33,181 nucleotides of DNA from Actinomycetota bacterium (GTDB taxonomy: Bacteria; Actinomycetota; Acidimicrobiia; Acidimicrobiales; Microtrichaceae): positions 1-33,181 of the forward strand of contig WLLG01000002.1 in assembly GCA_009700815.1 (NCBI GenBank). Reading direction: 5' to 3'. Of this stretch, positions 30,088 through 33,181 are shown piece by piece. The position numbers and the translations under genes are program-made. A model generated the notes under the pieces. That model was not told where the DNA came from. It ran no database searches and saw only the letters and a program-made list of their open reading frames with translations. Positions within the stretch are counted from its first letter, which is position 1, and each line of letters opens with the position of its first letter.

Positions 30088-30873
30088 ATGACTAGTGCCG
30101 CGCCAGGACAAAGTCCCTGGATCACTGAGTTCTTGAGCGGGAACGCTCATGAATTGCATCAATCCGAGATGCCACCTGCGCAGAGGTGTGTCCGACTGCA
30201 TTCCCTCACCCGACCTGCGGTGGTCTTGGGAAGCGCTCAAGTCGCAGGGTCAAGACTTGGATCCTCCGAGAAGTTGGCGGTTGTTGCTGCCGAAGTGCTG
30301 GAGCAATTCGGTTGTGACCTTGCCGTGAGACGTTCGGGGGGAGGCGCAGTGTGGCTCTCGCCCGGTGATCAATGCTGGGTTGATATCTGGTTGCCAGCGG
30401 GTGATCCGTTGTGGCGCTCCGACGTGGGTCAGTCCTCGTGGTGGCTGGGGGAGTGTTGGGCAGAGGCCTTGGCTGAAACGAGTCAGCTAGCCGCGCAGCC
30501 AGTGGTTCACCGGGGCCCCCTGCTGCATCGTGATCTTGCAGAGGTGGCTTGTTTTGCTGGACTGGGGCCAGGCGAGGTCACAGTTGATCAGAAGAAGATT
30601 GTGGGTATTTCTCAGCGCAGGTCTCGACTTGGGGCGCGATTTCAGTGCGTTGTCTACACGCACTGGGACCCCAAGCCCTTGTTGGAAGTTCTGCAGTCTT
30701 GTTACCCGCAGACTGCTGCGGGAACCGAGTTTGGTCATGCACTCGGCGATGCATTGAATAGTGGAGTACTAGCAGTGCAGGTAGCCCCAGCAGAACAGGT
30801 AGCCCCAGCGCCCTCGGGGGTTACTGCAGAGCGGCAGATCCTCAACGCACTGCTAGCAAGCCTTCCGCGCTAG
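30088..30873 (+). CDS. lplA: Lipoate-protein ligase A-family protein
   Basis: A BPL/LplA-fold ligase (261 residues). The RRSGGGAVWLSPGDQCWVDIW block (residues 81-101) is the lipoate-binding strand-loop of the family, and Lys170 in VDQKKIVGISQRR aligns with the catalytic Lys. Such enzymes attach lipoate or octanoate to E2 and GcvH domains. The C-terminus carries a duplicated QVAPAE segment, and the small accessory domain of E. coli LplA is absent, as in LplA-like or LipM-like proteins. The ATG at 30088 follows GGGGGAG. A 13-bp duplication covers its stop codon. Whether it is a salvage ligase or an octanoyl-transferase-type enzyme is not settled. Confidence 0.78.
   Translation: MTSAAPGQSPWITEFLSGNAHELHQSEMPPAQRCVRLHSLTRPAVVLGSAQVAGSRLGSSEKLAVVAAEVLEQFGCDLAVRRSGGGAVWLSPGDQCWVDIWLPAGDPLWRSDVGQSSWWLGECWAEALAETSQLAAQPVVHRGPLLHRDLAEVACFAGLGPGEVTVDQKKIVGISQRRSRLGARFQCVVYTHWDPKPLLEVLQSCYPQTAAGTEFGHALGDALNSGVLAVQVAPAEQVAPAPSGVTAERQILNALLASLPR
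30778..30813 (+). repeat. 18-bp tandem repeat, 2 copies, near the 3' end of lplA
   Basis: CAGGTAGCCCCAGCAGAA is followed by a second copy at 30796. They encode QVAPAE then QVAPAP. Confidence 0.85.
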
Positions 30874-30888: not shown

Positions 30889-30906
30889 AACTCGAAACTC
30901 CCCCTG

Positions 30907-30953
30907 GATTGGCGCCGGAAAGCGACGGATTCCGTAGCTTACCGGCGCCAATC
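30907..30953. repeat. 47-bp near-perfect inverted repeat in the lplA-mraZ gap
   Basis: The outer arms GATTGGCGCCGG and CCGGCGCCAATC are perfect over 12 bp. The inner arms add eight pairs, interrupted by two mismatches, around a three-base ATT centre. A C-rich tract on the left and a G-rich tract on the right lie outside. There is no T run after it. It could be a rho-independent-like terminator for lplA, a structured RNA, or a protein-binding or mobile palindrome. Confidence 0.6.
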
Positions 30954-30988
30954 GATGAGGGGGGTCCACTATGAGCGCGAGAGCACGC

Positions 30989-32803: not shown

Positions 32804-33181
32804 CAGCTGTTCGTAGCCGATCCGCTCGGAGATCACCCGCAGTAATTCAACCCAAGTCAACTACGCGCCGCACTAGCGCTGCAGCTAGCAGCACAAAGTC
32901 GCGAGCTGTGGTCCGGCCGCTCCCCCAGAAGGCGGCCGGACCACAGCTCCGAATATTTCCTCGCAGGGTTGTGTCGCTCCGCCTCGCCGTGCTTATGGCC
33001 GTCTTGTTGTTCTTTGGATTTTTGTTCGGAGCGGTTGCGATTCAGAGCCAGCGCATCTCGGGCCAACGCCAGATTGATCTGCTATCAGCCGAGATCAGCG
33101 CCCAGCAGGACACCAACCATGCTCTGCGCGCTCAGGTGGCGGAACGAGAGGCGCCCGAGCGAATCACCGCAGAGGCTGAGA
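32800..33181 (+). CDS. ftsL: Cell-division protein FtsL-like (3' truncated by window edge)
   Basis: The frame opens with a GTG overlapping the rsmH stop and stays open to the window edge (127 codons visible). It has a basic, Ser/Thr-rich cytoplasmic N-terminus of about 60 residues, one membrane helix (about 63-82: LAVLMAVLLFFGFLFGAVAI) and the start of a periplasmic coiled coil (QRISGQRQIDLLSAEISAQ and onward), with an ERITAEAE-like stretch. Position after rsmH, topology and size fit FtsL, a bitopic subunit of the FtsQLB division complex. FtsL sequences are very divergent, so the call rests on context and layout. A perfect 18-bp inverted repeat (32903-32949) lies inside its N-terminal coding region. 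Confidence 0.8.
   Translation, partial: MTAVRSRSARRSPAVIQPKSTTRRTSAAASSTKSRAVVRPLPQKAAGPQLRIFPRRVVSLRLAVLMAVLLFFGFLFGAVAIQSQRISGQRQIDLLSAEISAQQDTNHALRAQVAEREAPERITAEAE
32903..32949. repeat. Perfect 18-bp inverted repeat inside the ftsL reading frame
   Basis: Arms GAGCTGTGGTCCGGCCGC (32903-32920) and its exact complement (32932-32949) flank an 11-base loop. They encode AVVRPLPQKAAGPQLR in the disordered N-terminus of ftsL. In RNA this would be a very stable hairpin about 100 bases after the ftsL start. There is no T run after it. Confidence 0.85.

Follow-up and report, generated by a model that had tools for sequence, protein, structure and literature searches.

A dispersed family of intergenic palindromes in the genus of strain IMCC26207, with one copy between lplA and mraZ

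REP/BIME elements are short, dispersed, extragenic palindromes of genus-specific sequence that often lie at gene 3′ ends, form mismatched, asymmetric hairpins and are sometimes clustered, and the family described here resembles them in each of these respects. REPs have been defined as GTAG- or CGTC-tagged palindromes (Di Nocera et al. 2013, PMC3733652). In contrast to REP/BIME, our family is longer (∼45 bp) and has far fewer copies (∼20, low for REP), has no such tag outside the stem and no RAYT, and shows gain and loss of gene blocks between copies. MITEs and small palindromic repeats are likewise multi-copy, non-coding inverted-repeat elements that were apparently mobile in the past, but here the entire element is one hairpin, for which neither a target-site duplication nor a partner transposase was found. 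With attC sites and CALINs the family shares a palindromic site after single genes, cassette-like content that includes toxin–antitoxin genes and a species-specific sequence, whereas R-box motifs are found in none of 76 copies and the sites are scattered over the chromosome. The U-tract-less terminators of actinobacteria are similar in being long, GC-rich hairpins after genes and tRNAs, but members of our family are near-identical at unrelated loci.

The window, by which we mean the whole 33,181-nt stretch that was analysed, belongs to a genome assembly of 2.46 Mb in 364 contigs that is 73% complete (GCA_009700815.1, contig WLLG01000002.1). A preliminary description had placed a 47-bp near-perfect palindrome between lplA and mraZ in this window, and reading the sequence showed its position to be exact. 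The features of the region are:

30088..30873, + strand: lplA-like lipoate ligase gene (Pfam LplA-B_cat)
30900..30960, + strand: extended stem of the lplA–mraZ copy, with outer C/G tract
30907..30953, + strand: lplA–mraZ copy, 47-bp near-perfect palindrome, own-genome member of the 45-bp repeat family; orientation +, marker GCGACGG...CCGTAGC
30922..30938, + strand: hairpin centre with the orienting asymmetric G.A mismatch, inner stem ACGG/CCGT and ATT loop
31229..31663, + strand: mraZ, first gene of the dcw cluster (Pfam MraZ)

The palindrome begins 33 bp beyond the lplA stop codon and ends 275 bp before mraZ. It reads GATTGGCGCCGGAAAGCGACGGATTCCGTAGCTTACCGGCGCCAATC, and its 22-nt arms pair around ATT at 20 of 22 positions, with A.A and G.A as the mismatches; the pairing, the ATT centre and the outer C/G tracts are all as first described. 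A C tract (30900–30904) and a G tract (30959–30964) lengthen the stem to approximately 30900–30960, and the extended inverted repeat has 30-nt arms (83%). Among short-loop inverted repeats in the window this palindrome is the longest; an arm-18 scan returned two palindromes in the window, as against none once its sequence had been shuffled. None of 200 shuffles equals its fold as DNA (z = −7.1), and the same holds for its fold as RNA (z = −5.3; 0/200). At the palindrome we found neither a sigma-70-like promoter nor a T-tract terminator, and there are no tRNA genes within the window. In an Rfam covariance search the best match was MIR8008, at 27.8 bits against a gathering threshold of 66, and we reject this identity as a sub-threshold hairpin artefact. 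The ftsL palindrome (32903–32949), with which a common length and a difference in sequence had been noted, is indeed 47 bp long, with perfect 18-bp arms and an 11-nt loop; its sequence is unrelated and the likeness in length is coincidental. The ftsL inverted repeat also persists in two congeneric genomes, G005 (L047) and the diverged G003 (L159), and constitutes a conserved hairpin within coding sequence; in G003 it carries a paired T-to-C/A-to-G change.

A search of the genome for homologous copies of the lplA–mraZ palindrome returned 10 full copies and one partial copy, the outcome tied to a repeat element in the preliminary description. Of the four options raised there, the evidence supports a mobile palindrome: near-identical copies occupy unrelated intergenic sites, the lplA–mraZ locus shows presence and absence between species, and blocks have been gained or lost between copies. 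The genus is that of strain IMCC26207 ("Ca. Limnosphaera", Acidimicrobiia), and each of the five congeneric genomes searched has copies, at ∼20 per genome and 21 in IMCC26207. We analysed 76 copies from loci of six congeneric genomes, five of which are MAGs that are 62–84% complete, G005 (92%) alone being near whole.

BLAST-level copies were absent from 55 further genomes of the same family and order, and a 20-base arm pattern searched against the genomes of 84,980 species gave 48 matches, all 48 within the genus, including the isolate IMCC26207 (LCZK01). This strain ('Ca. Limnosphaera aquatica') is a member of the Microthrix cluster of the Acidimicrobiia (PMC5962788). No copy was found in the plasmid collection searched, nor in the viral contigs searched, where the match in one contig is to a single arm within a structural gene and is thus attributed to chance; within these collections, carriage by phage or plasmid is rejected. 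A literature search for the lplA–mraZ repeat element returned nothing. Elsewhere in the order, a covariance model picked out five genomes with weaker matches (E 1e-8 to 1e-4), and these have the hairpin architecture in common with our family; because the model selects for similar centres, we do not claim common descent. In 400 kb of one of these five genomes, which is of another genus (G009; L212–L231), a model-free scan found 28 palindromes with 18-bp arms as against two in shuffled DNA. Gene calls for G009 were unreliable, and the strand context of its palindromes was left out of account. These form several multi-copy families, often with a common outer TTCTG...CAGAA-like end and differing interiors, and long palindromic repeats may be common in Acidimicrobiia, each genus having its own sequence. 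A two-copy palindrome in G005, GTCTTGCGCCTGACCCCC..GGGGGTCAGGCGCATAAC (L240:6488–6527 and L245:9077–9116), is unrelated to the repeat family. Several CAMDLX01/CAMDAT01 contigs (L070, L071 and others), titled Bifidobacterium breve, match G004/G002, which belong to the IMCC26207 genus, and the label on these MAGs is apparently wrong.

The repeat core is ATTGGCGCCGGTAAGCGACGGWWTCCGTAGCTTACCGGCGCCAAT, and the consensus of the 76 copies is ATTGGCGCCGGTAAGC-G-ACGG-WWT-CCGT-A-GCTTACCGGCGCCAAT. GGCGCC is intact in both arms of 74 copies, and a G.A mismatch close to the centre gives the element its orientation. Partly conserved flanks, C..GCA before the core and TGATTCAGG after it, are reversed relative to the centre in a few copies, which look as if recombination between the arms had flipped the interior. 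As for the suggestion of a structured RNA, pairing is maintained in 96.7% of cells, but substitutions are so few, and leave A.A, T.T or G.G mismatches so often, that they make no case for RNA over a DNA palindrome. Variation is mainly A/T or G/C exchange; the change from AT to TA is seen in seven copies at one pair and in 10 copies at a second, and A.A and T.T intermediates occur. Thus, the symmetry of the palindrome is kept and specific RNA pairing is not demonstrated.

By our home-made gene calls, all copies are intergenic save for overlaps of up to ∼30 nt with gene ends. Many directly follow gene stops and some precede genes. Twenty-one of the 76 copies are 18–102 bp from a tRNA gene that is transcribed toward the copy (tRNA-Leu (TAG, CAG, AAG), tRNA-Ser (TGA, CGA) and tRNA-Met), and a second stem-loop, GGACCGAACC TGCA GGTTCGGTCC, usually lies between tRNA and palindrome. 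At Leu/Ser tRNA genes this interval also has a third stem-loop (GATGTCTCGCGACATC), and the second and third are common to different tRNA loci, forming a composite of hairpins (seen to the right of the copy in L016, L048, L051, L054, L063, L066, L125 and others). The copies are also clustered: the 21 of IMCC26207 include seven pairs no more than 3.5 kb apart, where 0.48 are expected, a number reached in 1 of 20000 simulations.

Such placement raises the question of whether the palindrome acts as a bidirectional terminator, or as a stabiliser of RNA 3′ ends, for lplA, the tRNAs and other genes. The hairpin is strong on both strands, many copies lie shortly after a gene stop or beyond a tRNA whose transcription runs toward the copy, and actinobacterial terminators can be without U tracts. 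A role of this kind nevertheless seems to us rather doubtful: near-identical arms at unrelated loci exceed what a terminator needs, the stem-loop GGACCGAACC..GGTTCGGTCC usually precedes the palindrome at tRNAs, and some copies stand before genes. A T-tract is present at only 2 of 76 copies on the + strand and 4 of 76 on the − strand; given these counts and the lack of one at the lplA–mraZ palindrome, a T-tract intrinsic terminator is rejected. The same observations, together with the near-invariant arms, speak against the suggestion that the palindrome would insulate the dcw promoter.

Copies are vertically inherited: comparison of flanks places most of them in loci common to several species. 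In 21 ortholog pairs, which are not independent of one another, the core is 97.5% identical and the aligned flank 90.9%, with the core higher in 20 of 21. Even in G003, the most diverged genome at ∼80% identity to the other congeners in aligned DNA, three orthologous cores match at 42–43 of 43 bases. In all 10 G003 copies the first base past the right end of the core is A; elsewhere it is T in 62 of 66. A change at so many loci at once implies either a shared reader or homogenisation, and recognition in trans is likely. Homogenisation is incomplete, since in most species the peptidoglycan-binding-protein locus retains a TTAGC/GCTAA-type variant of its own.

These patterns bear on a second alternative, in which a sequence-specific DNA protein with a chromosome-organising or regulatory role binds the palindrome, and selection keeps it at ∼20 intergenic positions. 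Indeed, a functional role, as a binding site or as an RNA, could explain just as well why old copies are so strongly conserved. The arms are nearly invariant across copies and species, the core is conserved beyond its flanks, no copy lies inside a called gene past its last ∼30 nt, and the genome-wide concerted base of G003 is what a changed reader protein would be expected to produce. On the other hand, presence at a given locus varies between species, the copies are grouped around tRNAs and variable blocks instead of being evenly spread, and 45 bp with partly conserved tails (GCA..TGATTCAGG) exceeds a typical single-protein site. On balance we regard a binding site as somewhat unlikely.

The gene content between copies is variable in a way that is bounded by the copies themselves. 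Three loci illustrate this: (i) in G004 only, an SfLAP-family gene lies between two direct copies 899 bp apart, where G000, G001, G002 and G005 have a single copy; (ii) in G005 and G002, HipBA lies between direct copies 2.2 kb apart, where G000, G001, G003 and G004 have one; and (iii) in G005, a VapBC-like pair and a 490-aa gene lie between direct copies 2.4 kb apart, where G002 has one. In all three, homology to the single-copy alleles breaks at the copies. The VapBC-like DNA (Phd/YefM and PIN) is found only beside copies: G004 has it, 84% identical, at a site unrelated to that in G005, and a remnant beside HipBA marks a third site. Together, these observations identify the copies as junctions of gain and loss, and the best reading is that the repeat serves as a recombination junction. 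An AbiEi-like gene sits between two inverted copies. A GGDEF diguanylate cyclase gene is also located between two copies (L052:3800–5080 and L064:650–1980), as one 354-aa frame in G002 and as two shorter frames in G005.

Gene-then-palindrome units in direct orientation, with cassette-like presence and absence, toxin–antitoxin cargo and species-specific sequence, are also what would be expected if the palindromes were recombination sites for gene cassettes, in a system of integron type using some unknown integrase. We judge this very unlikely. The attC R-box pair GTTRRRY/RYYYAAC is found on neither strand of any of the 76 copies, and attC identity is rejected on this ground; each genome encodes one to three recombinases that are assigned to the tyrosine recombinase family (PF00589); and the copies are scattered, not in one array. 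Furthermore, the repeated stretch at the SfLAP locus is ∼131 bp long and takes in ∼74 bp of flank specific to the locus, as would suit homologous recombination and not a self-mobile cassette. It is similarly improbable that Acidimicrobiia have an integron-like system that moves toxin–antitoxin and other cassettes between scattered palindromes with no recognisable integron integrase, perhaps through Xer or another chromosomal recombinase acting on folded single strands. The SfLAP locus favours homologous recombination over a dedicated recombinase for block exchange.

We return to the palindrome as a repeat element, and consider it likely that the family is a genus-restricted, dispersed, intergenic repeat that forms hairpins or cruciforms, REP/MITE-like and non-autonomous, with no detectable RAYT. 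The copies may have spread in the ancestor of the genus, aided by a trans-acting factor that read the GGCGCCGG arms. Pairs of direct copies, which have 30–130 bp of flank in common, would now provide short homologies for the insertion and deletion of blocks, often toxin–antitoxin genes, with ordinary homologous recombination as the probable route. RAYT genes (Y1_Tnp, PF01797) were found in none of the six congeneric genomes and none of five others with similar hairpins, in a search whose control was positive in 5 of 14 known genomes, and no clean empty site with an insertion footprint or target duplication was seen among the loci compared. Identity with a tagged REP is rejected, as GTAG occurs within 10 nt outside the core in 5 of 76 copies and CGTC in 2 of 76, and RAYT is absent. 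If the repeat-element reading is right, an aquatic class that has been little studied would gain a transposase-orphan palindromic family, which has stayed conserved between genomes that differ by ∼20%. The family would mark sites where toxin–antitoxin and other blocks are exchanged in freshwater actinobacteria and offer concrete, testable junctions for their spread.

It would also be a warning against reading the lplA–mraZ hairpin as a dedicated dcw regulator. Conservation of the palindrome in this gap, which the preliminary description had asked of relatives, holds in part. G004 and G005 have a copy at the same place as our genome, whereas G003 has lplA and mraZ with no palindrome between them; the gap in G003 has diverged too far for a footprint to be defined, and may represent a loss. 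The locus had no match in the G001 and G002 assemblies. Across the genus, dcw expression thus does not require the copy, which is probably a neutral or mildly useful insertion in the 3′ flank of lplA, not a dedicated dcw regulator. The outer CCCC..GGGG is also found at this locus in G004 and G005, although the intervening sequence differs. Several MAG contigs (L124, L134, L140 and L015) stop within ∼60–250 bp of a copy, as though assemblies broke at the repeat.
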